Assembly: GCA_017458125.1 (NCBI GenBank)
Contig: JAFTGB010000041.1
Location: 62,001 to 126,000 of the forward strand
Origin: Prevotella sp.
GTDB lineage: Bacteria > Bacteroidota > Bacteroidia > Bacteroidales > Bacteroidaceae
Direction: 5' to 3'
Length of the DNA stretch: 64,000 nt
The position numbers were made by a program, and so were the translations under genes. The notes under the pieces were generated by a model. The model was not told the origin of the DNA and made no database searches. It worked only from the letters and a program-made list of their open reading frames with translations. Numbering within the stretch: position 1 is the stretch's first letter; each line of letters starts with the position of its first letter. Below are positions 2,579 to 64,000 of the stretch, piece by piece.

Positions 2579-2582
2579 GACT

Positions 2583-3209
2583 ATGGCAAAGAAAAGAACA
2601 CTTAGTAATAACAATTTAACATCAACAACTATGGCTATAAAGACAAAGAAAGACTTGAAGGACGTATTCAGCGGCCTTGCAAGCCTGTTGTACCAGAAAG
2701 CGGAGCTTGATCTGTCGAACCTTACAGGACTGGCAATCACTCCAGAGTTTGACCTTCCCGTGAAGGTAGAAACCTTCACTTTGGAGCAGGGCGACCCCTC
2801 TATTGAGCACTACAAGGTGATTGGCCTTCCCGGTGACTGGGTAACGAGTTCTGAGCCCGGCGACATTGACCTGTCATTCCGTGTGCCTACCAAGCATACC
2901 GACGTGCTGAAACTGGCCTACGGCGAGGATGCTGTGAAGCAGGTTACGGCCACTGTGAACACAAAGGGTACTGGCGACGGCGACAGCTACACAGGTGTTG
3001 GCCTTGTGCTGCAGCAGACCAAGGTTGACGGAACTTTCGTCCTGGTCAGCGAGGACAAGAAGAATCTTCTTGTGCTTACGAACACCTCCCTGTGGGCGAA
3101 GCCTGTGCTGGACAAAGACACGAAGGGTGTGTTTGCGCTGGACTTCAACGGTACCATCGAGACCGACGGCACGAATCCCGACATTCTGTTCCTGACGAAG
3201 GCAGCGTAG
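2583..3209 (+). CDS. Major tail tube protein
   Basis: A 208-residue (192 if started at 2631) beta-rich protein with an extended strand pattern around residues 50-190, including ITPEFDLPVKVETF, GDIDLSFRVPTKH and GVFALDFNGTIETDG. It fits siphovirus tail tube proteins in size, in position before the chaperones and tape measure, and in being followed by its own terminator, as expected for a highly expressed structural gene. The ATG at 2631 is preceded by an AT-rich stretch typical of Bacteroidota translation starts and may be the true start, because the first 16 residues look like untranslated leader. Confidence 0.7.
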   Translation: MAKKRTLSNNNLTSTTMAIKTKKDLKDVFSGLASLLYQKAELDLSNLTGLAITPEFDLPVKVETFTLEQGDPSIEHYKVIGLPGDWVTSSEPGDIDLSFRVPTKHTDVLKLAYGEDAVKQVTATVNTKGTGDGDSYTGVGLVLQQTKVDGTFVLVSEDKKNLLVLTNTSLWAKPVLDKDTKGVFALDFNGTIETDGTNPDILFLTKAA

Positions 3210-3231
3210 AAGGGTGTACGACCAAAGACCA

Positions 3232-3270
3232 AAGGGGCGGCGGGGTGACCGTCAGCCCCTTCTTTCTTTT
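3232..3270 (+). terminator. Rho-independent terminator after the tail tube gene
   Basis: A stem of AAGGGGC (3232-3238) with GCCCCTT (3255-3261) closes over a GC-rich loop and is followed by TCTTTCTTTT. It lies 23 bases past the tail tube stop and would let the tube gene be transcribed more than the downstream chaperones. Confidence 0.7.
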
Positions 3271-3370
3271 AAAAGGTGGCATAAAAAAGAAAAGAATCAA
3301 ATTGGAGAAAATAAAAACCTACTGAGTATCAGCAAGATATTCTTTTTATGGATTTTCTACGAAGAAAAAG

Positions 3371-3841
3371 ATGGCAGAAGAAAAGAAGATAGAACAGCCG
3401 TCACAGGACTTGCAACAGCTGTTGGATGACATCATGGAGGCGAGTCCCGAAACGGTTGTGGTGAACGGCAAGAAGCGCAAGATAGGTTGGCTGCATAACG
3501 GTGTGACACGGAAGTTCTCACATATCATGGTGACAGAGAAAGACCCTTGGAAGCGGAATGTGAAGGTAGCATCATGCGTACTGCTTAACCATCGGTACGG
3601 ACTGGTGACATGTCTGCTGCTGCACCTGTGGTACTGGGTGTACTGGCGTTGGCAGTACTATGTGCGTGACATGGACCAAGTAGAGGTAATGGGAGTGCTC
3701 GATGCCTCCAAAAAAAAAATTCAATCAGGGCCGTTAGCAGTGGCTACCATATTAGCGACCGCAATGATGGACACGATAATGACGATGACCAAACAAGAGT
3801 ATGGCCGAGCCGCACACGATGGGGCGCAGCCTACTCTCTAA
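3371..3841 (+). CDS. Tail assembly chaperone, first frame (G-type product)
   Basis: A 156-residue protein directly upstream of the tape measure. Its N-terminal ~115 residues contain a Trp/Tyr-rich amphipathic segment (LLHLWYWVYWRWQYYVRDMD), and the zero-frame end (LAVATILATAMMDTIMTMTK) is hydrophobic. Position between tail tube and tape measure is the classic place for the G/GT chaperone pair. An uninterrupted run of ten A's at 3710-3719, read TCC AAA AAA AAA ATT, offers a -1 slip into the frame of the next gene, which is open throughout. The zero frame continues 40 codons past the run to a TAA at 3839. Confidence 0.65.
   Translation: MAEEKKIEQPSQDLQQLLDDIMEASPETVVVNGKKRKIGWLHNGVTRKFSHIMVTEKDPWKRNVKVASCVLLNHRYGLVTCLLLHLWYWVYWRWQYYVRDMDQVEVMGVLDASKKKIQSGPLAVATILATAMMDTIMTMTKQEYGRAAHDGAQPTL
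3710..3719 (+). promoter_or_regulatory. Candidate -1 programmed frameshift site (A10 run)
   Basis: Ten consecutive A residues contain the heptamer A AAA AAA in the right phase relative to the zero frame (third base of one codon, then AAA AAA). After a -1 slip the ribosome reads AAT TCA ATC AGG and continues with no stop to the end of the next reading frame at 4116, passing through its ATG at 3850. Fusion of the two chaperone frames by -1 slippage is well known in lambda and many siphoviruses. Confidence 0.6.
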
Positions 3842-3849
3842 GCGAGAAA

Positions 3850-4116
3850 ATGCCTTGGTTGTTTGATCGGCGGTTTGGCATCAGAGCCTTTGATTATTGG
3901 TGGGGCTATACTACGGCTCAGATAGAGTTGATGGTGGCCGACCAGCCCGTGATAGACTATGGCAGCAAAAATGGAAAGAAGGGCATGGGTAACAGTCGTG
4001 CCGACGTGAACGAGATGGATGCCCTTGCAGATGCCTGGGCCAAGAAGAAAGAGGCCGAGGGTGGCATGGATGGTAAGACATTCTCGCTGAGCGGGTTCTT
4101 ACGGAGAGAGGTGTAG
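3850..4116 (+). CDS. Tail assembly chaperone, second frame (T-type; probably made as a frameshift fusion)
   Basis: An 88-residue frame from the ATG at 3850; as a -1 fusion it would begin around base 3718 and add ~133 residues to the first chaperone product. It contains a Trp/Tyr cluster (FDYWWGYTTAQIELMVADQP), then an Asn/Asp/Lys-rich C-terminal part. It ends seven bases before the stop of an opposing membrane-protein gene. Independent initiation at 3850, nine bases after the upstream stop, is also possible by translational coupling. Confidence 0.6.
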   Translation: MPWLFDRRFGIRAFDYWWGYTTAQIELMVADQPVIDYGSKNGKKGMGNSRADVNEMDALADAWAKKKEAEGGMDGKTFSLSGFLRREV

Positions 4117-4123
4117 ATTGGGA

Positions 4124-4405
4124 CTACTTTTCGAGTGTTCCGAAATGGAATTTCTTGCGGTAGTAGTTGCGTTTCTGCTTCTGTTGTTCAAGGTACTTCT
4201 TGCGTTGCTTGTCGAACATGTAAGGCCAGTTAGGGCAAAACTCCTGTGGGTAATACCACCATATAATAGGGCGAAATATGGCATAGGCCACCAAACCACA
4301 TAAAGGTGCAATAACAAAGTACCCTATTATCTCAAAATCAGAAACAGGGGCAAAGAAAATAACAAAGGCACAAAGAGCAAAAAAGGCATATTTCAAAATC
4401 TTCAT
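4124..4405 (-). CDS. Small membrane protein, moron-type gene inside the tail operon
   Basis: A 93-residue protein with two likely transmembrane helices (KYAFFALCAFVIFFAPV and YFVIAPLCGLVAYAIF) and a basic C-terminal tail of ~40 residues (KQRKKYLEQQKQKRNYYRKK). It is the only reading frame here with membrane-protein composition, and it runs against the virion genes. It has its own promoter (TTTG, 19 bases, TAACTTTG) in the gap before the tape measure gene. This arrangement fits a moron expressed from the prophage, such as a superinfection-exclusion or envelope-modifying protein. No family was recognised. Confidence 0.6.
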   Translation of the reverse strand: MKILKYAFFALCAFVIFFAPVSDFEIIGYFVIAPLCGLVAYAIFRPIIWWYYPQEFCPNWPYMFDKQRKKYLEQQKQKRNYYRKKFHFGTLEK

Positions 4406-4427
4406 AAGCAGTATATTTATACGGCTA

Positions 4428-4458
4428 CAAAGTTAGGCAAAATTTTCAGGATAACAAA
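4428..4458 (-). promoter_or_regulatory. Bacteroidota-type promoter for the small membrane protein
   Basis: On the - strand, TTTG at 4455-4458 is followed after 19 bases by TAACTTTG at 4428-4435, an exact match to the TTTG / TAnnTTTG pattern. The start codon of the membrane protein gene follows 22 bases later. Confidence 0.65.
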
Positions 4459-4474
4459 ATAAATCTTCATAATT

Positions 4475-7400
4475 ATGGCAGAATCAGACAATCTATATAT
4501 CGGCTGGGAGTTGCGCGGCAAGCTCGAACAGCAAATCAAAGATGCTATCAAGGACGCGGAAAAACTTCAAGAAGCGATTGAGCAAGTGCAGGCCGCTGGC
4601 GAGAAGATAGACGCAAGCAAAGGCCAGAAGCACATCGAGAAGAATGCCCGTGAGGCGACGGAAGCCATTTTCAAGATGACGGAAGTCTTGGAAAAGGCCA
4701 ACCAAGCCATTGCCAGGAATACGGCCCATCGGAACGAAGACCTGTGGGGATTCGACGATGCCCGGCTGCAACGTAGTGTTGCGCGTTTGGGAGAGATTGT
4801 GGAAAAGGTTACCAATATCGGTGCAGAAGCAGCCCTTTCCGGCAATGCCGTCAAGAATCTTCTTGCGACCCTTGATGCCAATTTGGTTATGAAGGATGTG
4901 AAGTCAGGCACGAAAACCCTTGTCGGCCAGATGGACAAAGAAGAGAAGGAGCAAGCCAAAGCCAAGAAGGAAGCTGCCAAGGAAGCCGCCAAAGCCGAGA
5001 AAGATGCCGAGGATGCCGCCGCCCGCAATGCCGCTGCCCAGGAGAAGGTGAAGGATGCCTTGGCGCGTATTGCCACAGCCCGCTCACAGTTATCAGCCGT
5101 CAGTGCTAATGCCAGCCAGCAGGAGCAGATGCACATCCAACTCCTGCTGTCATTGCTTGACAGGCTATCAAAGAAACTTGCGACGCTGAAAGGTACAGAC
5201 CTCAGTGCCAAAGGTGCACTGGCAGGTGTGCTTGGCAGTGGGTATGCCGGGCTGATGCGCAATGTCAGCACAGCCATCAACGATCTACAAAGCGGAAGAC
5301 TAAACGGTCTTGGCATGAGCGACGAAGAATGGGAGAAATCCAAGGCTCTTGCAGCCCAAGCCCAGCGTCGGAAAGAAATAACCGAAGCCGTAAACGAGCA
5401 AGCTGCTGCCGAGGCCAGAGTAGAGGCCTTCATTCAGCTGCGCCAGCATAAAAAGCAGATGGAAGAAGCGCGTGAAGAGCGCGAGATGGCCGCTGCCGTG
5501 AGAGAGGTAAACCGTGCCTTGGAAGAGAAAGCTGCAAAAGAGGCCAAGGCCATACAGGTAACGAGGGAGAATGCACAGGCTAATCAAGGACTTGCGTCTG
5601 CATACGAGCGTGCAGCGGAGATGGGTAATAGGCAGAACAAGATAGTCACCCAGTTGCAGCAACAGGTGGCAGGATATTTCGGGCTTTATGCAGGTGAGCA
5701 CTTCCTCAAGAACCTGATACAGATAGGCGGTGAGTTTGAGGTGCAGCACATAGCACTACAGAACATCCTCGGTGACGTGCAGCAAGCCAATTCGATGTTT
5801 GAGCAGATGAAGGAGCTGGCCGTTGTGTCACCCTTCAACTTCCGTCAGTTAGCAAGTTACGCCAAACAGGTTGCAGCGTTCAACGTACCATACAACGAAA
5901 TGTTTGACACCACCAAGAGGCTTGCCGACATATCAGCAGGACTTGGTGTAGACATGGGCCGACTGATATTGGCCTACGGACAGGTAAGAAGTGCCTCTGT
6001 GCTGAGAGGTCAGGAACTAAGGCAATTCACGGAAGCAGGCATTCCGCTCGTGCAAGCTTTGGCCAACGAGTTTACCCGTCTGAATGGTCGTGCGGTATCT
6101 ACGGCCGAGGTCTTTGACCTTATCTCGAAGCGTGCCGTGCCGTTTGAGATGGTGAAGAAAATCCTGTGGGATATGACCAATGAGGGTGGTCGATTCTTCG
6201 ACACCCAGTTTGTGCTTGCAGACACGTTGGCAGGTAAGTGGTCGAACTTGCAGGACGCTTGGGAGATTATGCTTTCTAATCTGGCAGACGGGGAAGGTAC
6301 GGGAGGAAAGGCGTTAAAAACATTTGTCTCTTTAACGACATCGTTGATAGAGAACATGAACACCCTCTTTCCTCTTATCTCAGGTATGGCCTTTGCCTAT
6401 GGCTCTATCAAATTCAAGAACTGGGCAAGTAGCTTTGGAGATATTGGCTTTAGAGGCATTGATGCCAATATCCAAAAGGCACAACAGTTGAGAGCTATTG
6501 AACTGACCAGACAGAAGATAAACGGAGAGATAACAGGTCATCAGTATGCCCAGCTGATGCGGATGAATGCTCAGAAGGGCAACTATTACCAGGTATTGGC
6601 CATGGAAGGCAAAATGAATGCTCTCCAGATTCAGCGCGTCTACCAGCAAGGTAACCTGAACAAGAAGCAGCTGGAATACTTGGTGCTGATGGGGCGTATT
6701 ACTGCCGAACAAAGGAAGCAGATTATTGCGGGTTCATTGCAAACGAACGCCATGACTAACGCTTTGACTAACTTGAAAGGGTTTGGGAGTAAATTATGGG
6801 CAATGACAGGCTGGACAGGTGTTGCCATGATAGGCATTGAAGCCATCATAGGCGGCTTGATAGCATGGGAAGGCCATCTTGACGAGATAGCGCGGAAGAA
6901 CAAAGACCTGACCGACAGTTTCAGCAATCGTGGCAAGGAGTTGTCGGATGTCATCAGTGGCATGACAGGCACACCGACGAGCAATGATGAGTACAAAAGT
7001 GCCATTGACGGCATGAAGGAAATGCTCAAGCAGCACTCCACCAACTACGGTGCCATCATCCGTGAGACCGAGGCCCTTAATGGTCTTGAGTCGCAATACA
7101 ATCACCTAAAGAATGTGCTCCATGAAGAGAAGCAAATCACAGAAGAGGCCGAGAACAAAGCCACAGATTTCGGCTCTGCTGTACGTGACATTTTTGAGAG
7201 TGCAAAAAACAATGCGCGTACTTTCACTTCCAAGCGTCTTGGATTATGGGACACAATTATGGGCGGCGGTACTGCTGTCGGTAGGAATCTTGACAAAGAT
7301 ATTCAAGAGTTACATGACAAAATACTTGAAGCTATTCCTAATGTCGGGAAGAGCGAACGCGCCAATGAACTGTACCGCAAACTGAGAAACAGTCTTGAAG

Positions 7401-52740: not shown

Positions 52741-52772
52741 TTTGGCGGATTGTTCCAAACGTCGTACCTTTG
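52741..52772 (+). promoter_or_regulatory. Promoter of the sulfur/encapsulin operon
   Basis: TTTG (52741-52744), 20 bases, TACCTTTG (52765-52772), a strong match to the phylum consensus. The regulator start is at 52824, leaving a leader of about 45 bases. No other clear promoter is seen within the following 7 kb of co-directional genes. Confidence 0.7.
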
Positions 52773-52823
52773 CCGTCGGAAAGTTGCTTACGAGCAAAGG
52801 TAAATACAAACAACACAAGGACT

Positions 52824-53465
52824 ATGGCAAACTATATATTGGCAGATAATCAAGACCTGACGTGCTTCGCGGTGGAAAGCCTGTTGCGGAGTGACGAGCG
52901 GAACGTAGTGTACAGGGCTTCGGACAGGGCTGGTCTCATGCAGTTGCTGAAGGAGCATGAGAGCGCTACGGTGGTGCTGGACTACACGCTGTTCGACTTT
53001 GCTGATGTGGAGCAGCTGGTGATAGTGAGCGAACGGTTTGCGCTGTCGCAGTGGCTGCTGGTGAGCGATATGCTGTCGCCAGCCTTTCTGCGGAAGGTGG
53101 TGTATGCGACACATCAGTTCAGCATTATCTTTAAGGACTGTGGGCTGGGTGAGCTGCGCGAAGCCCTGCAGACCTTGTCGCACCACGGGCGTCACATCAG
53201 CCAGCGTGCGCTGGAGGTCGTCATCAGCCAGCAGCATGAGAATGAGGCTATGGACATTTTGACGGAGACGGAGCGCGAGATAGTGCATGCCATCGCACAG
53301 GGCAAGACGACGAAGGAGATAGCCGCCGAGCGCTATTCGAGTGTTCACACAGTGACGACGCACCGCAAGAACATCTTCCGCAAACTCGGAGTGAATACGG
53401 CTCACGAGGTGGTGAAATACGCGCTGCGGGCAGGGCTGATAGACCAGGCAGAATTTTATATTTAA
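52824..53465 (+). CDS. LuxR-type response regulator leading the sulfur operon
   Basis: A 213-residue protein with an N-terminal receiver domain (acidic pair near residue 8, phospho-acceptor Asp53 in VVLDYTLFDF, Ser81 in LLVSD, Lys104 in IIFKDC) and a C-terminal LuxR helix-turn-helix (residues ~150-210: LTETEREIVHAIAQGKTTKE, HTVTTHRKNIFRKLGVNT). The ATG at 52824 is chosen because the promoter lies inside the longer frame. No histidine kinase is adjacent, so it may answer an orphan kinase, acetyl phosphate, or act unphosphorylated. First gene of the operon, so probably its own regulator. Confidence 0.85.
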   Translation: MANYILADNQDLTCFAVESLLRSDERNVVYRASDRAGLMQLLKEHESATVVLDYTLFDFADVEQLVIVSERFALSQWLLVSDMLSPAFLRKVVYATHQFSIIFKDCGLGELREALQTLSHHGRHISQRALEVVISQQHENEAMDILTETEREIVHAIAQGKTTKEIAAERYSSVHTVTTHRKNIFRKLGVNTAHEVVKYALRAGLIDQAEFYI

Positions 53466-53480
53466 ACGGTAAAAATCAAT

Positions 53481-54662
53481 ATGAAGAAACAGACGATAGC
53501 CATACATACGCCTTACGTGAGGCCTGACGCCTACGGGTCGCTGGCCGTACCCATATATCCGAACGTGGCGTTTGAGTTCGGCGATGCCCAGCAGATGGCC
53601 GATGCCTTCTGCAACCGCATCAAGGCTCCCGACTATGCGCGCATAGCCAATCCCACGGTGACGAATCTGGAACAGCGCGTCCGTGCGCTGACGGGTGCTG
53701 CCCATGTGACGGCCTTCAACTCGGGCATGGCAGCCATCAGCAACACGCTGCTGGCGGTCGCCGCACAAGGCAAGAACATCGTGACCTCGCGACACCTCTT
53801 CGGTAACACGCTGGCGCTGATCAGCGGCACGCTGCTGCGTCTGGGCATCAAGCCGCGACTGCGCGACCTGACAGACCTGGAGGCGGTGGAGCAGGCGGTG
53901 GACAACGAGACGGCTTGCATCTACCTGGAGACGGTGACGAACCCCCAGCTGGAGGTAGCCGATCTCGGAGCACTGGCAGAGATAGCCCACCGGAAGGGTG
54001 TGCCCCTGATAGTTGACAGCACCATCATCCCCTTCACCGAGACGTCGCTCAGCGTGCTGGGCGTGGACGTGGAGGTGATATCGAGCACGAAGTACCTGTC
54101 AGGGGGCGGCACATCGCTGGGCGGACTGGTGATAGACTACGGCACCTTCCCGCAGATTAACCAACGCATCAAGTACGACCTGCTGATCAACCTGGGGGCG
54201 TATATGGCTCCGCAGGTAGCCTACCAGCAGACCTTAGGACTGGAGACGCTCGATGTGCGCTACCAGCGGCAGGCGGCGAACGCGCTTTATCTGGCAGAGT
54301 CGCTGCGCGAGTGGGGCAACATCCGCAGGGTGAACTACATCGGGCTGAAGGACAATCCCTACTACGAGCTGGCACAGCGGCAGTTCGGCCCTACGGCAGG
54401 TGCCATGCTCACTATTGACTTGCAGTCGAAGGAGCATTGCTTCCGTATGCTGAACCGTCTGAGGCTCATCCACCGCGCCACCAACCTGTTCGACTCGCGC
54501 ACGCTGGCCATCCACCCGGCGAGCACCATCTTCGGACTATTTCCAGAGCGGCAACTGGAACAGATGGACGTGCGGCAGACCACCATCCGGCTGTCGGTTG
54601 GGCTGGAAGATGCCGACGACTTGCTGGCCGACATCCAGCAGGCGCTGCAAGACGACTTGTGA
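53481..54662 (+). CDS. metY: PLP-dependent sulfhydrylase, MetY/Cys-Met metabolism family
   Basis: A 393-residue fold-type I PLP enzyme. The PLP lysine is Lys204 in VISSTKYLSGGGTSLGG, with LIVDSTIIPF carrying the ring-stacking and Asp contacts, and TAFNSGMAAISNTLLAV binding the phosphate. The family includes O-acetylhomoserine sulfhydrylase (MetY), MetZ and cystathionine gamma-synthase/lyase. Next to a sulfur carrier, E1 and JAMM gene, a MetY-type role, sulfur transfer to O-acetylhomoserine giving homocysteine, is the best guess. It is slightly shorter than classical MetY (~430), so a lyase remains possible. Confidence 0.8.
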   Translation: MKKQTIAIHTPYVRPDAYGSLAVPIYPNVAFEFGDAQQMADAFCNRIKAPDYARIANPTVTNLEQRVRALTGAAHVTAFNSGMAAISNTLLAVAAQGKNIVTSRHLFGNTLALISGTLLRLGIKPRLRDLTDLEAVEQAVDNETACIYLETVTNPQLEVADLGALAEIAHRKGVPLIVDSTIIPFTETSLSVLGVDVEVISSTKYLSGGGTSLGGLVIDYGTFPQINQRIKYDLLINLGAYMAPQVAYQQTLGLETLDVRYQRQAANALYLAESLREWGNIRRVNYIGLKDNPYYELAQRQFGPTAGAMLTIDLQSKEHCFRMLNRLRLIHRATNLFDSRTLAIHPASTIFGLFPERQLEQMDVRQTTIRLSVGLEDADDLLADIQQALQDDL

Positions 54663-54689
54663 TGATTTACGATTTACAGATTTACCATT

Positions 54690-55169
54690 ATGCAAGACAC
54701 AAAGAAACTAAGCATCATCGCCTTCTCTGGCGACTTTGACAAGCTGACGGCTGTATTCACGCTGGCCACAGGGGCTGCAGCAGTAGGCTACGAAGTGAAC
54801 ATCTTCTTCACCTTCTGGGGTCTTGACGCCATCAAGCACAAGCAGGGCAGAGCATTCATAGGCTCCAACTGGCTCACCAAGACCTTCGGCTTCATGATGG
54901 GCGGGCTGAAGGTGACCCCCACCTCGCGTTTCAACTTCTGCGGTGCCGGCCCCAGAATATTCCGCTCGCTGATGCGCAAGAACAATGTCGCCACGCTGGA
55001 GGAACTGGTGGACGCCGCCAAGGCGCTGGATGTTAACCTCTACGCCTGCGAGATGGCTATGCACGTGCTGGGACTCAAGCGCGAGGACTTCATCCCTGAG
55101 GTGAAGGACGTGCTGGGCGTGGCATCGTTCCTGAAGTTTGCTGACGGCGGACAGACCTTATTTATTTAA
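54690..55169 (+). CDS. DsrE/DsrF/DsrH-like sulfurtransferase-type protein
   Basis: A 159-residue protein of the DsrE-like family, which moves persulfide sulfur between carriers. The N-terminus SIIAFSGDFDKLTAVFTLAT and VNIFFTFWGL fit the family; Cys120 in LYACEMAMHVLG is the likely sulfur-bearing Cys, with a second Cys84 in RFNFCGAG. The gene lies between the MetY-like gene and tusA, in the same order as the sulfur relay it would serve. The gap upstream consists of GATTTAC repeats. Confidence 0.85.
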   Translation: MQDTKKLSIIAFSGDFDKLTAVFTLATGAAAVGYEVNIFFTFWGLDAIKHKQGRAFIGSNWLTKTFGFMMGGLKVTPTSRFNFCGAGPRIFRSLMRKNNVATLEELVDAAKALDVNLYACEMAMHVLGLKREDFIPEVKDVLGVASFLKFADGGQTLFI

Positions 55170-55188
55170 CAAAAGATAAATTGAAGTT

Positions 55189-55413
55189 ATGGCAACAAAA
55201 ACACTGGACATCACGAAGGAGCATTGCCCGATGACCTTCGTCAAGACAAAGATTGAACTGTCACGGCTACAGCCGGGTGACACCTTGGAAGTGCTGCTCT
55301 CTGAGGGCGAACCGCTGGACAATGTGCCCCGCAATGCGGTGGAGCAGGGATACGACGTGCTCTCGGTGGAGCATGTGGAAGGCACCACGCACAAGGTCGT
55401 CATCAGAAAATAG
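55189..55413 (+). CDS. tusA: TusA-family sulfur carrier
   Basis: A 74-residue protein. The signature ITKEHCPMTFVKTKIEL places the persulfide-carrying Cys13 in the CPxx motif, and the remainder is the usual two-layer fold (LQPGDTLEVLLSEG). TusA accepts sulfur from cysteine desulfurases and hands it to DsrE-type proteins; both partners are in this operon. Family length is normal. Confidence 0.92.
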   Translation: MATKTLDITKEHCPMTFVKTKIELSRLQPGDTLEVLLSEGEPLDNVPRNAVEQGYDVLSVEHVEGTTHKVVIRK

Positions 55414-55477
55414 CGGAATATGCAGACTAATAAGATAACCAGAGTTATTAACAATTAAAACAAGAGAAAACTGAACT

Positions 55478-56917
55478 ATGGCAGATTCAAATCTTCAACG
55501 CAGTGTGACCACTGCTACGGCCAGAAGACTGGCCACCACCACCAAGACCGCCCCGCAGATGGGCTCCATCACCCCTCGTTTGCTCCTCAAGCTCCTGCCC
55601 TGGGTGCAGGTCAGCGGCGGCACGTTCCGCGTGAACCGCACGAAGGTAGAACTCCGCAAGAACGACCGCTTGCCCATCCAGTACGTCAACGGCCAGCCCT
55701 CGTTCACGGCCAAGGACCTGAAAGCGATACCCCTGTTCTCGGAGTTTGACGACGAAATTCTCGCCCGACTCGTGAGCTCGTTCGAGGCCAAGGAGGTCGA
55801 TGTCGACAAACTCTTTGTCGAGGAGGGCAAGGACAAGCAGCGCTTCTTCATCGTTGCCAGTGGCCAGGCCGAGGTCATCAGCAAGGGCCCCCACGGCGAG
55901 GACCTGCGGATAGCCCTCCTGGGCGACGGCGAATACTTCGGCGAGGCCGACCTGCTGGACGAGCAGGAGTCGACGGTCTCCGTGCGCGCCATCACGCCTA
56001 CCGTCTTCCTCGGCCTGAAGCTCAAGGAGCTCATCAAGTTCATCAAGGAGGTGCCCGACTTCCGCGAGACCTTCAACAAAGCCGTCGACAAGCAGCTGCG
56101 CCTCAAGGCATCGGTCAATGACAACGGCGAGAAGCACATCGACCTCGTCTCGGGCCACGAGGAGGACAACATCATCCCCGAGACCTACATCGACTACGAG
56201 GAGAACCCCACCGAGTACTCGCTCAACACGCTGCAGACCGTCGTCCGCGTGCACACCCGCGTCAGCGACCTCTACAACAATCCCTATAACCAGCTCGAAG
56301 AGCAGTTGCGTCTCAGCATCGAGAGTATTAAGGAACGCCAGGAGTGGGAGCTCATCAATAACCGTAAGTTCGGTCTCTTGGCCGCCGCCAACCCCGCCTA
56401 CCGCATCACCACGCGCTACGGTGCCCCGACGCCCGACGACCTCGACGAACTGCTGTCATTAGTATGGAAGGAGCCGGCCTTCTTCATCGCCCATCCGCGA
56501 GCCATCGCTGCCTTCGAGCGCGAATGCACCTGGCGCGGCGTACCGCCCGTGACCACCGACCTCTTTGGCACCAAGGTCATCCTGTGGCGCGGTGTGCCTC
56601 TGATTCCCAGCGACAAGGTGGAGGTGGAAGGCCAGTATCTGACCGGCCGCGGTGTAGGCACCACCAAGATTATCCTCGTCCGTGTCGGCGAGAAGAGTCA
56701 GGGTGTCGTCGGCCTCCACCAGAGCGGTATTCCCGGCGAGATAGCCCCGTCGCTCTCCGCCCGCCTGATGGGCCTCGACAAGTTTGGCGTGGCTTCCTAT
56801 CTGCTCACCAAGTATTTCTCATTAGCCTCGCTGACTGACGATGCTATCGCAGTGCTGGAAAATGTGGAGGTGGGCTACTATCACGACTATCAGCACCGCA
56901 ACAAAGTAGAGAAATAA
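55478..56917 (+). CDS. Family 2 encapsulin shell protein with inserted cNMP-binding-like domain (family 2B type)
   Basis: A 479-residue HK97-fold shell protein of the family 2 (SrpI-related) encapsulins. N-terminal arm residues 1-50 are Thr/Arg-rich (TTATARRLATTTKTAP) and lead into the shell fold. Residues ~80-210 are an inserted cyclic-nucleotide-binding-like domain (LKAIPLFSEF, GEYFGEADLLDEQESTVSVR with Arg170). The shell domain then resumes (NTLQTVVRVHTRVSDLYNNP, ITTRYGAPTPDDLDELLSLV) to the C-terminus. It should assemble into a protein cage. The next gene is its probable cargo, four bases away. Nucleotide or ligand binding by the insert is not shown by sequence alone. Confidence 0.9.
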   Translation: MADSNLQRSVTTATARRLATTTKTAPQMGSITPRLLLKLLPWVQVSGGTFRVNRTKVELRKNDRLPIQYVNGQPSFTAKDLKAIPLFSEFDDEILARLVSSFEAKEVDVDKLFVEEGKDKQRFFIVASGQAEVISKGPHGEDLRIALLGDGEYFGEADLLDEQESTVSVRAITPTVFLGLKLKELIKFIKEVPDFRETFNKAVDKQLRLKASVNDNGEKHIDLVSGHEEDNIIPETYIDYEENPTEYSLNTLQTVVRVHTRVSDLYNNPYNQLEEQLRLSIESIKERQEWELINNRKFGLLAAANPAYRITTRYGAPTPDDLDELLSLVWKEPAFFIAHPRAIAAFERECTWRGVPPVTTDLFGTKVILWRGVPLIPSDKVEVEGQYLTGRGVGTTKIILVRVGEKSQGVVGLHQSGIPGEIAPSLSARLMGLDKFGVASYLLTKYFSLASLTDDAIAVLENVEVGYYHDYQHRNKVEK

Positions 56918-56920
56918 ACC

Positions 56921-58393
56921 ATGATGACAGAACTACAGAATCTTTCCGGCTACGGACTGGAAGACCCCGGGTTTGAGCTTTTGCGCCAAGTGGCGCAAAA
57001 GTACTGCCCCGAGGAGTTGCAGTCAGAGCGCCGAGCCGTCATCCCCGACGAGGTGCTGAATATAGAGGCCCTCGCCGCCCTCGTCCCGTCTGAAGCTGTG
57101 TCACAGCATCCCCAGGAGCCCTCCTCCATCCGCCCCTTCGGCGAGACCGAGCTCAGCCACCTCCACTACGAAGAGACCGACACGCTCTCGACGGACGAGA
57201 TCAAGAAGGACTTCCCCGTGTTGCAGCAGCGTGTGAACGGCCACCCGTTAGTATGGCTCGACAACGGTGCCACGACGCAGAAGCCCCTGCAGGTGATAGA
57301 CAAGATTTCGGACTACTACCGCAACTACAACTCCAACATCCATCGCGGTGCCCACACGCTGGCTGCTCGCGCTACCGATGCCTACGAGGCTGCCCGCGAG
57401 AAGGTGCGCCGCTTCATCAACGCCCCGTCGGCTGACGACATCATCTTCGTGCGGGGTACCACCGAGGGCATCAACCTCGTGGCACAGACCTACGGTCGGC
57501 AGTATCTGACCCCTGGCGACAATGTCATCGTCTCCGAGCTCGACCATCACGCTAATATCGTTCCCTGGCAGCAGGTGGCCAACGAGCGGGGTGCTGAGCT
57601 GCGCGCCATTCCTACCGACAAGAACGGCGACCTCATCCTCTCCGAGCTGGAGCGACTCATCACACCGCGCACACGCTTCGTCTCCGTGGGCCACGTGAAC
57701 AACACCTTTGGCACCATCAACGACGTGCAGCGCATCATCGACATCGCCCATTCGCACAACATCCCCGTGCTCATCGACGGCGCTCAGTCGATAGCCCACA
57801 CGCCTGTCGACGTGCAGCAACTCGGTGCCGACTTCTTCGTGTTCAGCGGTCATAAGATTTATGGCCCCAACGGCATTGGCGTGGTCTATGGCCGCAAGGA
57901 TATATTAGAGAAGATGCAGCCTTGGCAGGGCGGCGGCAACATGATTAAGGATGTTACCATCGAGCGCACGGAATATAACGTGCCGCCCGCCCGCTTTGAG
58001 GCCGGCACACCCAATGTGGCCGATGCTATCGGTTTGGGGGCAGCCCTCGACTACGTGAGCAGTATCGGCATCCGCAATATCGAGGCTCACGAGCACCAGC
58101 TCACGGAGTATGCCCGCGAGCAGCTGGCACAGGTGCCCGGGCTGCACCTCATCGGCAATCCCAAGCGTAGGGTCAGCGTGGTGTCGTTCTATCTCGACGG
58201 TATCCCCGTGCCCGAGACGGGCAAGCTGCTCGACCAGGAGGGCATCGCCGTCCGCGCCGGCCACCACTGTGCCCAGCCTGCCCTGCGTGCCCTGGGTCAC
58301 GAGATGTCGGTGCGTCCCACCTTCGCCCTCTATAATTCGCGTGACGATGTAGACCGTCTGGTCATCGCCCTGCGGAAAATTGTTGGAAGTTGA
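56921..58393 (+). CDS. Cysteine desulfurase with N-terminal cargo-type extension (SufS-like)
   Basis: A 490-residue PLP enzyme that takes sulfur from cysteine, giving alanine and a protein persulfide. PLP Lys312 lies in FSGHKIYGPNGIGVVYG, with VWLDNGATTQKPLQVIDKIS and SNIHRGAHTLAARAT upstream. The active-site Cys450 is in AVRAGHHCAQPALR. About 90 residues precede the catalytic fold (from MMTELQNLSGYGLEDPGFEL to EETDTLSTDEIKKDFPVL). They are low-complexity and Pro/Glu/Ser-rich, the form of the disordered targeting region on encapsulin-loaded desulfurases. It starts directly after the shell gene. Confidence 0.9.
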   Translation: MMTELQNLSGYGLEDPGFELLRQVAQKYCPEELQSERRAVIPDEVLNIEALAALVPSEAVSQHPQEPSSIRPFGETELSHLHYEETDTLSTDEIKKDFPVLQQRVNGHPLVWLDNGATTQKPLQVIDKISDYYRNYNSNIHRGAHTLAARATDAYEAAREKVRRFINAPSADDIIFVRGTTEGINLVAQTYGRQYLTPGDNVIVSELDHHANIVPWQQVANERGAELRAIPTDKNGDLILSELERLITPRTRFVSVGHVNNTFGTINDVQRIIDIAHSHNIPVLIDGAQSIAHTPVDVQQLGADFFVFSGHKIYGPNGIGVVYGRKDILEKMQPWQGGGNMIKDVTIERTEYNVPPARFEAGTPNVADAIGLGAALDYVSSIGIRNIEAHEHQLTEYAREQLAQVPGLHLIGNPKRRVSVVSFYLDGIPVPETGKLLDQEGIAVRAGHHCAQPALRALGHEMSVRPTFALYNSRDDVDRLVIALRKIVGS

Positions 58394-58446
58394 GAATTGA
58401 GCGTTGTCGGCTCACGGATTAAGCATTAAACATAGAAAAAAGAAAT

Positions 58447-58722
58447 ATGGCAAAGTTAACAGTTAACGGAGAAGTTCAGGAGGTGCAGTTGCCCCTGACG
58501 CTCACACAGCTTATCAAACAGAATAATGTGCTACAGCCCGAGATGGTCAGCGTCCAGGTGAACGAGGACTTTGTGGACCGCAGCGAGTGGGACGCTATCC
58601 AAATTCAGGAGGGCGACTTGGTGGACTTCCTTTACTTCATGGGGGGCGGAAGCTATTGGACTATTGGACGATTTACAATTAGACAATTACCAGCTGATAC
58701 ATACGGTAAAATAGTAAAATAG
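58447..58722 (+). CDS. hcyS: ThiS/MoaD-like sulfur carrier protein with C-terminal extension (HcyS type)
   Basis: A 91-residue protein whose first 68 residues match small beta-grasp sulfur carriers (MAKLTVNGEVQEVQLPLTLT, VSVQVNEDFVDRSEWDAIQI). They end in FLYFMGGG, the Gly-Gly tail that becomes the thiocarboxylate. Residues 69-91 (starting SYWTIGRFTIRQL) form an extension that must be removed before activation. The extension is encoded by AT-rich sequence of the intergenic repeat type, so it may be a read-through of a lost stop. It lies just before the E1-like gene and two genes before the JAMM protease that could trim it. Confidence 0.85.
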   Translation: MAKLTVNGEVQEVQLPLTLTQLIKQNNVLQPEMVSVQVNEDFVDRSEWDAIQIQEGDLVDFLYFMGGGSYWTIGRFTIRQLPADTYGKIVK

Positions 58723-58736
58723 TGAAATAGTAAAAT

Positions 58737-59543
58737 ATGGTAGATTTCACAGAAGAACAGATACAACGCTACTCGCGGCATATCCTGTTGCAGGACGTTG
58801 GCGTCGAGGGGCAAGAGAAGATCATGAACGCCCGAGTATTGGTGGTCGGAGCAGGCGGCTTAGGTGCTCCTGTATCGCTCTACCTCGCTGCTGCGGGCAT
58901 CGGGCGCATTGGCATCATCGATGCCGACGTGGTAGACCTCTCGAACCTGCAGCGTCAGGTCATCCACTTCACCAAGGACGTGGGGCGTCCGAAGGTGGAG
59001 AGCGCCAAGGAGAAAATACAGGCCATCAACCCCGATGTCGAGGTCGACACCTACCATGAATTCCTCTATTCGGGCAATGCGCTGGATATTATCAGACAGT
59101 ACGACTTCATCGTCGACGGCACAGACAACTTCCCAGTGAAGTTCCTCATCAATGATGCCTGCGTGATGGCCGGCAAACCCTTCTCGCACGGTGGTATCCT
59201 GCGTTTCAACGGCCAGACGTTCACTCATCTGCCCGGCACGGCGTGCTACCGTTGCTTCTTTAAGGAACCGCCGCCCGCTGGAGCCGTACCCACCTGCTCG
59301 CAGGCCGGTGTGCTCGGAGCCATCGCGGGTATGCTGGGCACCATTCAGGCCGCCGAGACGCTTAAATACTTCACAGGCGTAGGCGAACTGCTCACCAACC
59401 GCCTGCTGACCTTCGATGCCAAGACGATGCAATTCCGCACCATTCCTGTGCGCCAGCGTCCGTCGTGCGAGATATGCGGCGAGCATCCCACCATCACGCA
59501 GCTGATAGACTACGAGCAGGCCGCCTGCGACCTTCATAAGTGA
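58737..59543 (+). CDS. hcyF: E1-like adenylyltransferase (ThiF/MoeB/HesA family; HcyF type)
   Basis: A 268-residue enzyme that adenylates the carrier's C-terminal Gly so that sulfur can replace AMP. The ATP-binding loop VLVVGAGGLGAPVSLYLAAA is followed by LSNLQRQVIHF and the acidic IVDGTDNFPVKFLINDA. A PTCSQAGVLG Cys is a candidate catalytic residue, and two CxxC pairs (CYRC, CEIC) bind zinc. The ATG directly follows a block of TAGTAAAAT-type repeats. Its partner is the carrier encoded just upstream. MoeB and ThiF share this layout; context decides for the sulfur pathway here. Confidence 0.88.
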   Translation: MVDFTEEQIQRYSRHILLQDVGVEGQEKIMNARVLVVGAGGLGAPVSLYLAAAGIGRIGIIDADVVDLSNLQRQVIHFTKDVGRPKVESAKEKIQAINPDVEVDTYHEFLYSGNALDIIRQYDFIVDGTDNFPVKFLINDACVMAGKPFSHGGILRFNGQTFTHLPGTACYRCFFKEPPPAGAVPTCSQAGVLGAIAGMLGTIQAAETLKYFTGVGELLTNRLLTFDAKTMQFRTIPVRQRPSCEICGEHPTITQLIDYEQAACDLHK

Positions 59544-59560
59544 AAAATATGCATTAACCG

Positions 59561-59947
59561 ATGATTATACCACAGAGCATAATAAATGAATTGACAGTAC
59601 AGGCTCAGAAGGATGCGCCCAATGAGACCTGTGGCTATCTCTTAGGAATCGATGATGTCGTCATCGAGAACTACTGGATGGAGAACATCGACCACTCGCC
59701 GGAGCACTTCAGCTTTGCTCCCAAGGATCAGTTTGCGGCACTGCGGTATGCGCGGTCAAAAGGACTGAAGATTCTTGCCAACTGGCACTCGCATCCCGCT
59801 TCGCCGTCGCGTCCCTCGCAGGAGGACTTGCGCCTGGCCAACGACCCCACCATCCGCTATGCCATCCTCTCGCTCTACGAGGGCATCCACCTGAATTCGT
59901 TCAGAATTTCTGGTGGCGAGGTCGTCGACAAGGAGGTACACCTCTGA
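59561..59947 (+). CDS. hcyD: JAMM/MPN+ metalloprotease (HcyD / Mec-like)
   Basis: A 128-residue zinc protease of the JAMM family. Glu22 in NETCGYLLG and the metal motif HSHP (76-79) with Ser86 and Asp89 in SPSRPSQED are complete, so it should be active. In Mycobacterium the related Mec protease cuts after the Gly-Gly of the carrier CysO; in Wolinella HcyD trims HcyS. Here the carrier encoded two genes upstream has an extension past its Gly-Gly-Gly, matching a need for this protease. Last gene of the operon, 17 bases after the E1 gene. Confidence 0.88.
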   Translation: MIIPQSIINELTVQAQKDAPNETCGYLLGIDDVVIENYWMENIDHSPEHFSFAPKDQFAALRYARSKGLKILANWHSHPASPSRPSQEDLRLANDPTIRYAILSLYEGIHLNSFRISGGEVVDKEVHL

Positions 59948-59977: not shown

Positions 59978-60139
59978 GAGGGTGTTTCAAAATGGGCTAA
60001 TTAATTCCTCCCCTTGGAAAGGGGAGGTTAGGAGGGGTTGATTTCATCGACGAATATATTATATTTACCTGCGAATTATCAACCACCCCCAGCCCCTCCT
60101 TGGAAAGGAGGGGAGTTAGTTACATTTTGACACACCCTC
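59978..60139. mobile_element. MITE-like inverted-repeat element (162 bp)
   Basis: Terminal inverted repeats GAGGGTGTTTCAAAATG (59978-59994) and CATTTTGACACACCCTC (60123-60139) differ at one base out of 17. Inside, CCTCCCCTTGG...AGGGGAGG and its counterpart CCCCTCCTTGGAAAGGAGGG form further palindromes. The ends resemble Bacteroidota insertion-sequence ends; there is no transposase. No clear target-site duplication is seen. It lies in the gap after the sulfur operon. The 59,948-60,400 gap holds this element, a promoter and a leader ORF. Confidence 0.65.
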
Positions 60140-60261: not shown

Positions 60262-60450
60262 ATGAAAACAATGAACGTGAAGCGAATGCAATGCCACACT
60301 CTCAACGAGAGAATGCGATCCTGTTGCGGCATGCAGATGATGAGAAATGAAAAGGAGGGTAGTATACACATTACTTATAAATATAAAGAACGGCAAACGT
60401 ATGAAAAAGAACATTTTTACCATAGCATTGATTTTAGGGCTGCAGCTTAG
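60262..60450 (+). CDS. Met/Cys-rich leader ORF (doubtful)
   Basis: A 62-codon frame from the ATG at 60262 runs through the leader and overlaps the start of the next gene by 50 bases in another frame. The first 33 residues hold eight Met and three Cys (e.g. MKTMNVKRMQCHTLNERMRS, then CCGMQMM). A stretch of ~29 bases in it (60288-60316) is nearly identical to bases 60485-60513 inside the next gene, read in the matching frame. It may be a leader peptide, a degenerate duplicate of the gene start, or chance. Confidence 0.3.
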   Translation: MKTMNVKRMQCHTLNERMRSCCGMQMMRNEKEGSIHITYKYKERQTYEKEHFYHSIDFRAAA

Positions 60451-61345
60451 TCTGACAGCCGTTGCACAACAGTCAGAAATTGCATTGCAACGCCACACGC
60501 TCAAAGAGAGAACGCCACACGCTCAAAGAGAGAAGGTAACCCTGCGCGTGCCAGACTTCGCACGTCCGTTGGTCGAGAAATGGGTTGAAGAGTATCAGAA
60601 GACCAATATGGAAGCCGATTTCCAGTTTATCTCAGGGAAATCGCAAAACACAGAAAATAGCCTCGCACTTACTACCGGCAACTCCGCCGTACTTGTGGCA
60701 CGCTATGCTGTGCTGCCAGTCACCACGCGCGGCTCCGAAGCCGAGCAGTTGGTTGGTGGGCATGCCTTGAATGCGAAAAAGCTGAAGCAGCTGTTCTTCG
60801 TCAACGACGACCTGGACGACGAACGTAAGGAAGGAAAGCTGGAGCAGCGATTGCACATCGTGACAGGTAACAGCCCACTGTCGGCTTCGCGCCTGTATGC
60901 AAAGAAATTCCATCAGGAGACAGTCAACTACAAAGGTAAAAAGATATCAGGAGACGATTCTTACCTCAACCTTGCCATTAGCCGCGACCCGCTGAGCGTG
61001 ACGGTCAACTCGCTGTCGAACATCTTCGACCTGGAGAGCCGCCAGCTGCGCCAGACGCTGGCCCTGTTGCCCCTGGATGTCGACAAGCAGGGACGACAGG
61101 TGCTCAGCGGGGGAAGTCTGGACGACATCCTGCAGTTGCTGGAGAACAAGCACTATGATGAGATTGCTGTTGGCGATATTGGATTCGAGTATAATCGTGC
61201 CAACTCCGTCCTGACCAGCTTTGTACAGTGGGTGCTGCAGAATGGTACACAGTATGTCCACCAGTATGGTCTGCTGCAATTGTCGCAGCAGGAACTGCTG
61301 GCGCAGTTGCGCCGTACGGTGCAGCATGAGCTGGCACAGAAATAG
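60401..61345 (+). CDS. Secreted periplasmic solute-binding-like protein
   Basis: A 314-residue protein from the ATG at 60401, with the signal peptide MKKNIFTIALILGLQLSLTA ending near AVAQ. The mature part has the alternating strand-helix pattern of a periplasmic binding protein of the PstS/phosphate-binding type (VTLRVPDFARPLVEKWVEEY, TGNSAVLVARYAVLPVTTRG, ISGDDSYLNLAISRDPL). No ABC transporter genes are adjacent; a TonB-dependent receptor follows, so it may feed or be fed by that receptor. A 22-base tandem duplication lies at 60491-60534 within the mature N-terminus. Ligand unknown. Confidence 0.6.
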   Translation: MKKNIFTIALILGLQLSLTAVAQQSEIALQRHTLKERTPHAQREKVTLRVPDFARPLVEKWVEEYQKTNMEADFQFISGKSQNTENSLALTTGNSAVLVARYAVLPVTTRGSEAEQLVGGHALNAKKLKQLFFVNDDLDDERKEGKLEQRLHIVTGNSPLSASRLYAKKFHQETVNYKGKKISGDDSYLNLAISRDPLSVTVNSLSNIFDLESRQLRQTLALLPLDVDKQGRQVLSGGSLDDILQLLENKHYDEIAVGDIGFEYNRANSVLTSFVQWVLQNGTQYVHQYGLLQLSQQELLAQLRRTVQHELAQK

Positions 61346-61394
61346 TAGCAATACGAGACTTTAGCCATAATCAATTAGTAGTTTGTTTTTAGAA

Positions 61395-61431
61395 GAGGGG
61401 CGGACTCACATCAACCACGAGTCCGCACCCT
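61395..61431 (+). promoter_or_regulatory. 5' leader hairpin before the SusC-like gene
   Basis: GCGGACTC (61400-61407) pairs with GAGTCCGC (61419-61426) over an 11-base loop, and AGGG/CCCT extends the stem past a bulge. It ends 17 bases before the ATG at 61449. It lacks a T tract, so it is not a terminator. No known riboswitch consensus is recognised. Confidence 0.4.
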
Positions 61432-61448
61432 TAGGGAGAATTGTGTTT

Positions 61449-64000
61449 ATGAAGAAAAGATTGGTTTTAATTTTGATGGTGCTGGGCACGGTATTGCCGT
61501 CGGCCCTGGCACAGACCACGCTGACGGGCCGCATTGCGGATGCCCGTACAGGAGAACCGCTGGCTGGCGCCACACTGGTGCCCAAGTCGAGCAAGGAAGT
61601 AGGGACGGTGACGAACTATGACGGGCGCTTCCGGCTGCAGACCAAGCAACAGCTGCCGCTCACGCTGATTGTCCAGTTTATAGGCTATCGCCCTCAGGAG
61701 GTGGATGTCTACGATGCTTCTGAGGAGATAGACATACAGCTCATTGAGGTGCCCAACTACCTGAGTGAGGTTGTGGTGACGGCCCTTGGCATCTCGCGCG
61801 AGAAGAAAGCCCTGGGATATTCGGCACAGGGCATCGATGCTGATGCGTTGAGCACGGGCAAGGACAACAACCTGCTGAACTCGCTGGAGGGAAAACTGGC
61901 GGGTGTGCGCATCACCAACACCCAGGGAGATGTCGGATCGAGCCGTATCATCATTCGTGGCGAAACCTCGATAGCGGGCGAGAACCAGCCGCTGTTCATA
62001 GTCGATGGTATTCCCGTGGACAACTCGCAGCTCAATGCACAGACTCAGGGACGTGACCCTAAGAATGCCATTGCTGACCTGAACCCGGAGGACATCGAGA
62101 ACATCACCGTGCTGAAGGGACCCAATGCCTCGGCGCTCTATGGCTCGCGAGCTGCACATGGCGCGATAGTGATTACCACCAAGACGGGGCGTGGCAGCAA
62201 GGGGCTGGGTATTACCGTACACTCGTCCACCCAACTGGCAACAGCCGCCAACCTGCCTGATTTCCAGAATGTGTTTGGTCAGGGTGCCGGCGGACAGTTC
62301 AGCTATGTAAACGGTGCAGGAGCCGGCATCAACGACGGTGTGGACGAAAGCTGGGGCCCACGGCTCGACATCGGTCTGCTGATACCGCAGTTCGACAGCC
62401 CGCTGGATGCCAACGGCAACCGCACGGCTACTCCGTGGGTGTCGCATCCAGATAATGTGAAGGACTATTTCCGTACGGGACTCACCCAGAATACGGGCAT
62501 CTCCATAGCGCGTTCGGCAGACAACTTCCAGTTCCGCTTGGCTTTCAACCATGAATATCAACGTAGCATCGTTGAAGGCTCGTCGAACAACAAGAGCAAT
62601 GTCAACCTGAATGTAGATTACGACTTGACCAAATGGCTCAGCGTGGGGGCTACCGCCAACTATATCATCTATAAGGCCCCCAACATCCCAGGGTCTGCCG
62701 GTGCCACAGGTTCTAACTATCGTGCCAACTCGACGATGCTCCAGTATCTGTGGTTCGGGCGACAGGTGGACGACGCTTCCCTGCGTGACGACTATTCGCG
62801 CAACTGGAATGCCAGTTACTACTCAAACCCCTATTGGAGTGCCTACTACAACACCTATGAGCAGGAGCGTCACCGACTCATTGGCGACCTGCATGCTACA
62901 TTCCATGTCATCAAGGGCCTTGACCTGCGCTTCCGCACCAGCACAGACTGGTATCAGGATCGCCGCAAGGCGAAGGTGAAGTGGGGAACGAGCGGCACGC
63001 CCTATGGCAAATATGAGGAGGATGCCTACACCGTCCAGGAGAATAATACGGAGCTGACGGCCGTCTACAACAGAAAACTGTCGGACGACCTGACCCTCGA
63101 TGCCCTGCTGGGATGGAACGTGCGCAACAAGCGCTATGAGAACAATTATCAGGCTGCTCCCGACTGGCTGTGGCTGACCTCTATACGCTGACCAACTCGC
63201 GCGACCAGCTCGTATCCAGCAACTATTTCTATCGCTTGCGCCAGTATGGTCTCTATGGTTCCGTGCAGGTAGGATATAAGGACTGGGCTTTCCTGAATGT
63301 CACCGGGCGCAACGACTGGTCGTCGACGCTGCCCAAGGATAACAACTCCTATTTCTACCCCTCGGTTACGGCCAGCGTGCTGCTGACGGAGGCTCTGGGA
63401 CTGAAGAGTAACACACTCAACTATCTGAAGTTGCGCGGTGGCTGGTCGCAGGTGGGCTCTGATGCCGATCCCTACCAGCTGGCCACGGTGTTCACCTCGG
63501 AAACGGCGTTCAACGGCAATCCACTGCAGACCACCAGCGGACAAGGCAAGAACGCCAACTTAAAACCCGAACGCACCACCTCCTGGGAGGCTGGTCTTGA
63601 GGCTCGTCTGCTGGACGACCGCATCCGACTGGACTTCTCCTGGTATCAGACCGACTCGAAAGACCAGATTCTTCAGCTGGCCACCACGGCAGCCAGCGGC
63701 TATAACACGCAGGTTCGCAATGCGGGCCATATCCGCAATCGCGGCTATGAAATACAGCTCGGAGTGACCCCGGTGCTCACCAAGAAGTTCAGGTGGGATG
63801 TGGATGTGAACTACGGACACAACGACAGCAAGGTCATCAAGTTGGACGACGAGGGGCTGATTACCAGCTACCAGCTGTATTCGTCGGGCATCCAGATTCT
63901 GGCTACAGTCGGCGAGTCCTATGGCACACTCTTCGGTTCGGCCTATACTCGTGATGCGCAGGGTCGCATCGTGGTCGATGCCAACGGACTGCCCAAGGTG
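61449..64000 (+). pseudogene. SusC/RagA-type TonB-dependent receptor, frameshifted, 3' end outside window
   Basis: The protein has a signal peptide (MKKRLVLILMVLGTVLPSAL), a CarbopepD_reg-like domain (GRIADARTGEPLAGATLVPK), a plug domain (SLEGKLAGVRITNTQGDVGS, PLFIVDGIPVDNSQ, VLKGPNASALYGSRAAHGAI) and a beta-barrel. The frame is open to a stop at 63191 but the barrel continues in a different frame (from about 63167, ADLYTLTNSRDQLVSSNYFY onward) to the right edge. Comparison of the two frames points to one missing C near 63164 (GCTCCCGAC then TGG, where CTG is expected). It could be a real mutation or a sequence error; if real, the gene is inactive. No SusD gene is visible yet. Confidence 0.85.

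Follow-up and report, generated by a model that had tools for sequence, protein, structure and literature searches.

A desulfurase encapsulin and a protein-thiocarboxylate gene set in one cluster of a rumen-type Prevotella: a predicted sulfur store with its own outlet

The stretch of DNA analyzed here (the window, 64,000 nucleotides of Prevotella sp., GenBank assembly GCA_017458125.1, contig JAFTGB010000041.1, positions 62,001 to 126,000) carries, at positions 52741-59947, nine + strand genes that run in one direction downstream of a single Bacteroides-type promoter. The cluster brings together a family 2B encapsulin shell and a SufS-type cysteine desulfurase, two sulfur-relay proteins of the DsrE2 and TusA types, a ThiS-like sulfur carrier with a ThiF/MoeB-like activating enzyme (E1) and a JAMM metalloprotease, a MetY-like O-acetylhomoserine sulfhydrylase and a LuxR/GerE-type regulator. 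The DNA itself reveals which genes are present, that their linkage is conserved, which active-site motifs they encode, and that the source and acceptor genes beside the carrier set differ among relatives. We predict, with a probability of about 55%, that the cluster is a sulfur bank with its own dispenser, in which cysteine sulfur held in the shell is passed to the carrier and from there into homocysteine.

Both halves are known separately, one as desulfurase encapsulins and the other as a set of carrier, E1, JAMM, SirA and MetY genes. The original prediction, made from this DNA alone, held their joint arrangement to be undescribed. This agrees with the literature that could be searched, most subscription journals and supplements lying outside its reach: no paper joining the two halves was found, and none on an encapsulin together with TusA or with a sulfur carrier.

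Linkage of shell and carrier genes in close relatives

A scan of one genome per species gave 473 relatives of the shell. The best 80 of these, with shell identity of at least 95% across their loci, form the close-kin set on which the counts in this section are based; in 71 of the 80 the record bears the name Prevotella, Xylanibacter or Prevotellaceae. Because the 80 loci are close kin, counts of gene layouts are not counts of independent events. Presence of all partners was scored where at least 4.5 kb to the left and at least 5.5 kb to the right of the shell gene were available, as is the case at 44 of the 80 loci. All seven partners of the shell (DsrE2, TusA, desulfurase, MetY, ThiS, ThiF, and JAMM) are present at 40 of these 44; one of the 44 (L102) has no ThiS at the locus. 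The original prediction had proposed the joint arrangement of the shell and carrier sets and had named loss of linkage in close relatives as an outcome that would refute it; the linkage is kept at most of these loci.

The genes are all co-directional, as in the window, at 15 of the 80 loci (layout A). At 47 loci (layout B) a JAMM-ThiF-ThiS group diverges from a DsrE2-TusA-shell-desulfurase-MetY group. One locus has another order, and at 17 ThiF is not in view, 14 of these being below the flank limit. The neighbors upstream of the cluster in the window (pth, hsp15, and a Na/Ca exchanger) recur at none of the 80 loci at half coverage or more. For the most part, then, the cluster stays together even where its surroundings and internal order differ. 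It is also present in the named strains Xylanibacter ruminicola D31d, Prevotella aff. ruminicola Tc2-24 and Prevotella sp. khp7, the records of which bear no metagenome-assembly label, and the closest kin of the window's genome are rumen-type Prevotella. In genome G032 (L021, L024, L025) the beginning of the cluster occurs twice, on separate contigs, and both copies are cut within or just after the shell gene.

The carrier set in shell-less genomes of the genus

Among 36 genomes of the same genus, the shell occurs in five, JAMM in nine and a fusion of sulfite reductase with TusA in three. DsrE2 of at least 87% identity is found in exactly the five shell genomes. All three reductase genomes have JAMM and none has the shell. 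JAMM accompanies the shell or the reductase in seven of eight genomes and is present in two of the 28 that have neither (Fisher p = 3e-5, kinship uncorrected); the contigs of these two exceptions (G020 and G033) begin at the JAMM or the E1 gene.

At one shell-less locus (L179) the order is regulator-ThiS-ThiF-JAMM-sulfite reductase/TusA-siroheme genes-sulfate activation genes. At another (L177) ThiS-ThiF-JAMM adjoins a reductase-TusA fusion of 74% identity, with sulfate genes recognized by eye, and in a further genome (G008) some 17 kb separate the reductase from JAMM. Since it adjoins sulfate genes in shell-less kin, the carrier set has the look of an outlet shared by alternative sulfur sources. 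That it may also serve sulfate assimilation in these kin adds to the picture drawn in the original prediction.

Sulfite reductase had no match in the five shell genomes of the genus, nor in the genome of the window, which is 88% complete. This fits life on organic sulfur. Among the nine cluster genes themselves, Pfam finds none for sulfate or sulfite reduction.

Other families and the limits of the linkage

The shell was further sought in 393 genomes drawn evenly across the order, and was called only above the curated NF041163 cut-off; at E 0.001 this model matched 340 of the 393, mostly through sub-cut-off matches to its cNMP (cyclic nucleotide monophosphate) domain. Ten genomes lie above the cut-off, the window's own among them. 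The other nine (loci L136-L144) all come from other families; a second, partial shell of genome G335 was left out. Shell, desulfurase, DsrE2, TusA, ThiS, ThiF and JAMM stand together, in further gene orders, at five of the nine loci (L140-L144), and three loci (L137-L139) are cut by contig ends. A cysteine synthase-like (CysK) gene is present at eight of the nine (in two pieces in L140) and a serine acetyltransferase-like gene at five, and MetY is found in L138 and L140. In the close-kin set CysK occurs at one of 80 loci and CysE at 14. From these CysK-like and MetY genes the acceptor seems to have been swapped, with the serine branch used in other families and the homoserine branch in rumen Prevotella. 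A radical SAM gene follows the cluster in L143. In L136 (bases 770-6242), genes of the nitrogenase family, for NifH, two proteins of the component-1 family and a NifB-like radical SAM protein, lie beside the desulfurase-encapsulin cluster.

Outside the order, 20 shell loci were taken from 60 matching genomes (the window's own excluded): 16 from one family (f136) and four from same-class genomes with a shorter shell. None of the 20 has JAMM, although some of them end at contig ends, and a universal link of desulfurase encapsulins to the carrier set was rejected on this count. All 16 loci of the one family (L146-L161) have CysK, two of them as weak matches; 11 have CysE, 11 have a related regulator, and eight adjoin thiamine genes that include thiG. 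In our sample the link to carrier, E1 and JAMM is therefore restricted to the order of the window, and it would have been grafted onto an older neighborhood of desulfurase encapsulin and cysteine synthase.

The encapsulin shell and its putative cargo

The shell gene (55478..56917; PF19307, 375 bits) encodes a protein above the curated family 2B cut-off (NF041163, 565 bits against 400), with a cNMP-binding-like domain (PF00027, 52 bits) inserted at residues 113-190. The family 2 shell with such an insert that was named in the original prediction is thereby confirmed and placed in family 2B. Domains of this kind are reported not to bind cyclic nucleotides (PMC12407261), and control of the shell by cNMP was set aside on that ground.

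The desulfurase gene (56921..58393; PF00266) encodes a SufS core (TIGR01979, 555 bits, cut-off 475) that follows about 89 extra N-terminal residues; the second SufS of the genome aligns to it from residue 90 onward. The cysteine pattern of the enzyme is present in 81 of 87 hits, and the lysine in all 87. The putative cargo extension has a conserved start of its own, LLrevAqkYCPEE (the consensus of 75 kin), which makes loading into the shell plausible.

The carrier, its activating enzyme and the protease

The carrier, E1, JAMM and MetY genes correspond to the thiocarboxylate route to homocysteine of Wolinella, whose components we take to be those named HcyS, HcyF, HcyD and MetY. The ThiS-like carrier (58447..58722; TIGR01683, 61 bits, cut-off 37.45) has a GGG motif that recurs in all 75 homology hits. 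The motif is followed by 23 residues in the window and by 1-10 residues in 68 of 69 rows selected for GGG. Many layout A relatives have a two-residue tail, because the stop of the carrier gene overlaps the start of the E1 gene; the window has extra DNA at this ThiS-ThiF junction (tail region 58651-58722). A role of the carrier in thiamine synthesis was rejected: the window's genome, within its stated completeness, has a single ThiS match and none to ThiG.

PF00899 (279 bits) is the only Pfam domain of the E1 (58737..59543), which has no rhodanese domain and whose PTCSQAG-type cysteine is found in 74 of 75 hits. The JAMM protease (59561..59947; PF14464, 83 bits) has an intact HxHx7SxxD motif, as do all 72 hits scanned, the window included.

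MetY, the relay proteins and the regulator

The closest solved structure to the MetY-like protein (53481..54662; PF01053) is 3RI6, the Wolinella enzyme (PMC11568248), with 323.9 bits against 244.6 for the next. The same holds for a MetY of layout B (351.2 against 263.4 bits). The other MetY of the genome matches 8WKO best (531 bits) and 3RI6 with only 271. In a midpoint-rooted tree of 28 sequences, for which the program issued a long-branch warning, the 17 operon enzymes form one group with support of 100/100, and the MetYs of family f136, from outside the order, fall outside it. The pyridoxal phosphate-lysine pattern is present in 72 of 88 hits, ordinary MetYs being among them. The best match and the grouping both uphold the assignment to the Wolinella type made in the original prediction.

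The TusA-type protein (55189..55413; PF01206) has the motif CPMT, which is found in 85 of 87 hits, while CPxP is found in none of the 87. With the TusA domain that forms part of the sulfite reductase fusion of L179 it shares 47% identity. As TusA is common to the shell and sulfate versions, it fits the role of a donor toward the carrier. The DsrE2-type protein (54690..55169; PF13686, 138.8 bits) retains its cysteine in 83 of 83 hits and scores 75 on NF047629, below the cut-off of 210.

The first gene (52824..53465) was originally called a response regulator. Its LuxR/GerE domain (PF00196) stands, but no receiver domain passed in Pfam. A relative of this regulator heads the sulfate-assimilation operon of L179, and others adjoin MetY at many layout B loci; in L026 and L030 the MetY is a second one of ordinary type, on the opposite strand. 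The protein is probably a sulfur regulator.

Proposed route of sulfur and alternatives to it

The steps of the predicted route may be pictured as follows. The N-terminal extension would load the desulfurase into the shell, where the enzyme would strip sulfur from cysteine, to be held as persulfide or elemental sulfur as in other cysteine-desulfurase encapsulins. DsrE2 and TusA would relay sulfane sulfur outward to the C-terminus of the carrier. By analogy with CysO and HcyS chemistry, JAMM would trim the tail after GGG and ThiF would adenylate the carrier with ATP, giving a thiocarboxylate. MetY would then add the thiocarboxylate to O-acetylhomoserine, and JAMM would free homocysteine from the carrier adduct, much as CysM and Mec act in their pathway.

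Several observations weigh against this prediction. Biochemical work on these proteins is not known to us. The cargo-type extension claimed for the desulfurase exists, in that about 89 residues with a conserved motif precede the core, but the protein does not reach the threshold of the model for family 2A cargo desulfurases (NF041166, 720.5 bits against 800, profile positions 213-623 only), and the 2A cargo motifs LARLANEFFS and AASPYYFLDG were not seen by eye in its N-terminus. A single operon fits the co-directional genes of the window and of layout A but is not the rule: at the 47 layout B loci transcription of the carrier genes diverges from that of the shell genes, which is the transcript break named beforehand among the refuting outcomes. 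Three shell clusters (L069, L079, and L084) have no local ThiS, ThiF or JAMM, and three more below the flank limit (L039, L061, and L074) have no carrier set within 10 kb on the layout B side. JAMM is found elsewhere in the genome for all of these except L079, in whose genome it was not found.

Further points of the same tendency come from other genomes. The carrier-E1-JAMM set also occurs without the shell in genomes of the genus, and the stretches of L177, L179 and L180 that hold it have no MetY. The five other-family loci with the full carrier set come from only three families, and L136 has ThiS, DsrE2 and TusA with no ThiF or JAMM within 19 kb. That shell and sulfite reductase strictly exclude each other is not supported: the two coincide in none of the five shell genomes of the genus, but p = 1, and L143 has a PAPS (phosphoadenosine phosphosulfate) reductase-domain gene 1.5 kb from its cluster. 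The window's genome also encodes the second MetY, of ordinary type, and one more member of the superfamily, so it may have ways to homocysteine other than the cluster.

The most serious competitor to the sulfur bank dispenses with storage: the shell would merely speed or confine the desulfurase, and the operon would be a constant transsulfuration bypass from cysteine to homocysteine. We regard this as unlikely, though well worth keeping in mind, for it explains almost as much as the sulfur bank does. In the Synechococcus system the desulfurase turned over about seven times faster when encapsulated (PMC8049743), relatives retain the carrier set beside the shell, and cysteine would be the sulfur source in the five genus shell genomes that gave no match to sulfite reductase. 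A plain bypass would need no shell, however, and the literature cites encapsulins with a desulfurase as stores of sulfur (PMC12407261). A less likely explanation is that the two halves are only neighbors in a regulon, the shell and desulfurase acting apart from the carrier and MetY, with the carrier fed by another desulfurase or by sulfide. The second SufS of the genome would allow this, and the kinship of the regulator to those that head a sulfate-assimilation operon and adjoin ordinary MetYs at many layout B loci is in keeping with it. It is nevertheless improbable, as the linkage outlasts rearrangement and is present in several families, TusA and DsrE2 lie between MetY and the shell, and close DsrE2 is confined to exactly the shell genomes among the 36.

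It is more improbable still that the carrier, E1 and JAMM serve ubiquitin-like tagging of the shell, desulfurase or MetY, in the manner of archaeal small modifier proteins (SAMPs), rather than sulfur carriage. An archaeal pair of SAMP and JAMM is reported to regulate enzymes reversibly (PMC4443979), and the cluster proteins do score on the corresponding models, although below cut-off (E1, 338 bits on the SAMP E1 model, cut-off 450; JAMM, 55 bits on the desampylase model, cut-off 130). They sit among sulfur genes, however, a sulfate-assimilation operon begins with the same set, the MetY is of the Wolinella type, and no E2-like Pfam match occurs in any of the nine cluster proteins.

Returning to the predicted sulfur bank, the differing source genes (sulfite reductase or shell) and acceptor genes (CysK or MetY) of relatives suggest separable source, relay, carrier and acceptor parts. 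A broader proposal, which we advance tentatively and at somewhat less than even odds, is that of a modular cassette. A virus-derived nanocompartment would replace sulfate reduction as the source for the carrier, DsrE2, TusA, carrier and E1 would form an ATP-driven dispenser, and MetY and CysK would be interchangeable acceptors, MetY giving homocysteine in rumen Prevotella and CysK giving cysteine in other families of the order. If so, no encapsulin sulfur store before it would have had a discharge route of its own. To our knowledge, no route by which sulfur leaves desulfurase encapsulins has been described. The cluster offers a candidate, protein by protein, that is amenable to test with eight purified proteins and gene deletions, and it ties protein nanocompartments to ubiquitin-like sulfur carriers.

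Promoter, gene spacing and flanking genes

The promoter (52741..52772, + strand) matches the Bacteroides-type consensus TTTG-N20-TACCTTTG. With both strands counted, the consensus matches twice between 51 and 62.5 kb, where mononucleotide shuffles average 0.065 matches. The second lies at 61442, past all nine genes, so that the promoter at 52741 is the sole match from 51000 to the end of the JAMM gene. The feature had been taken to begin at 52741; the promoter does sit there, while the regulator gene probably starts at 52824 rather than at the ATG at 52737. The list of nine co-directional genes was borne out gene by gene in Pfam and NCBIfam. The gaps between them are, in gene order, 15, 27, 19, 64, 3, 53, 14 and 17 bases, a range of 3-64 that corrects the 3-76 given earlier.

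The gap behind JAMM has, at 60010-60125, G/C-rich repeats that resemble each other and face opposite ways; they may be a terminator or a small mobile repeat. Downstream of JAMM (60347-63191), as in L186, lie genes for a secreted-looking protein with no Pfam match, a SusC-like TonB receptor, a SusD-like lipoprotein and a TlpA-like thioredoxin. The receptor is read as two frames that overlap, of 602 and 502 codons; in L187 it has 1017 codons. The secreted-looking protein is found at 26 of the 80 close-kin loci, and its predicted fold, of middling confidence (pLDDT 66.9), gives a weak PstS-like match. These genes possibly take up a sulfur source.

Comparison with known systems

Oxidative sulfur relays have the TusA and DsrE2 families side by side. 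The window is alike in that members of the two families adjoin, but no oxidative sulfur gene is among the nine, TusA of the window type has CPMT in place of CPxP, and DsrE2 stays below its NCBIfam cut-off.

A paper of 2024 is said to describe sulfur storage in a desulfurase encapsulin. The cluster resembles SrpI-CyD of Synechococcus elongatus, among the 2A and 2B desulfurase encapsulins, in having an SrpI-family shell with a SufS-type desulfurase that bears an N-terminal extension, although the extension is short here and has neither of two motifs of the studied 2A cargo. Desulfurase encapsulin operons number 1281 in family 2A and 199 in family 2B, and the accessory genes given for them in the accessible text are serine O-acetyltransferase and rhodanese (PMC8346489), whereas the window has carrier, E1, JAMM, DsrE2, TusA and MetY genes.

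The CysO pathway of Mycobacterium (CysO, MoeZ, CysM and Mec) likewise combines a carrier, an E1, a releasing protease and a cysteine synthase, with the protease Mec releasing the carrier-bound amino acid (PMC3227635); a CysK-like gene is likewise part of the kin clusters L141-L144. It differs in that its E1 has a rhodanese-like domain and its sulfur source is called unknown, the accessible text naming no shell or desulfurase (PMC3227635), while the acceptor enzyme in the window is MetY.

The nearest counterpart of the carrier half is the class 4e neighborhood described by Iyer and colleagues in 2006, which includes Wolinella and comprises a ThiS/MoaD-like carrier, a rhodanese-less E1, JAB/JAMM, SirA/TusA and O-acetylhomoserine sulfhydrylase (PMC1779556). 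The carrier with GG and a tail, the rhodanese-less E1, the intact JAMM, the TusA and the 3RI6-type MetY of the window all have their like there. The original prediction's identification of carrier, E1, JAMM and MetY as a Wolinella-type thiocarboxylate set is sustained by this likeness and by the 3RI6-like MetY. The source genes linked in class 4e are those for sulfate or sulfite, namely PAPS reductase and sulfite reductase (PMC1779556); in their place, the window has an encapsulin and a cysteine desulfurase.

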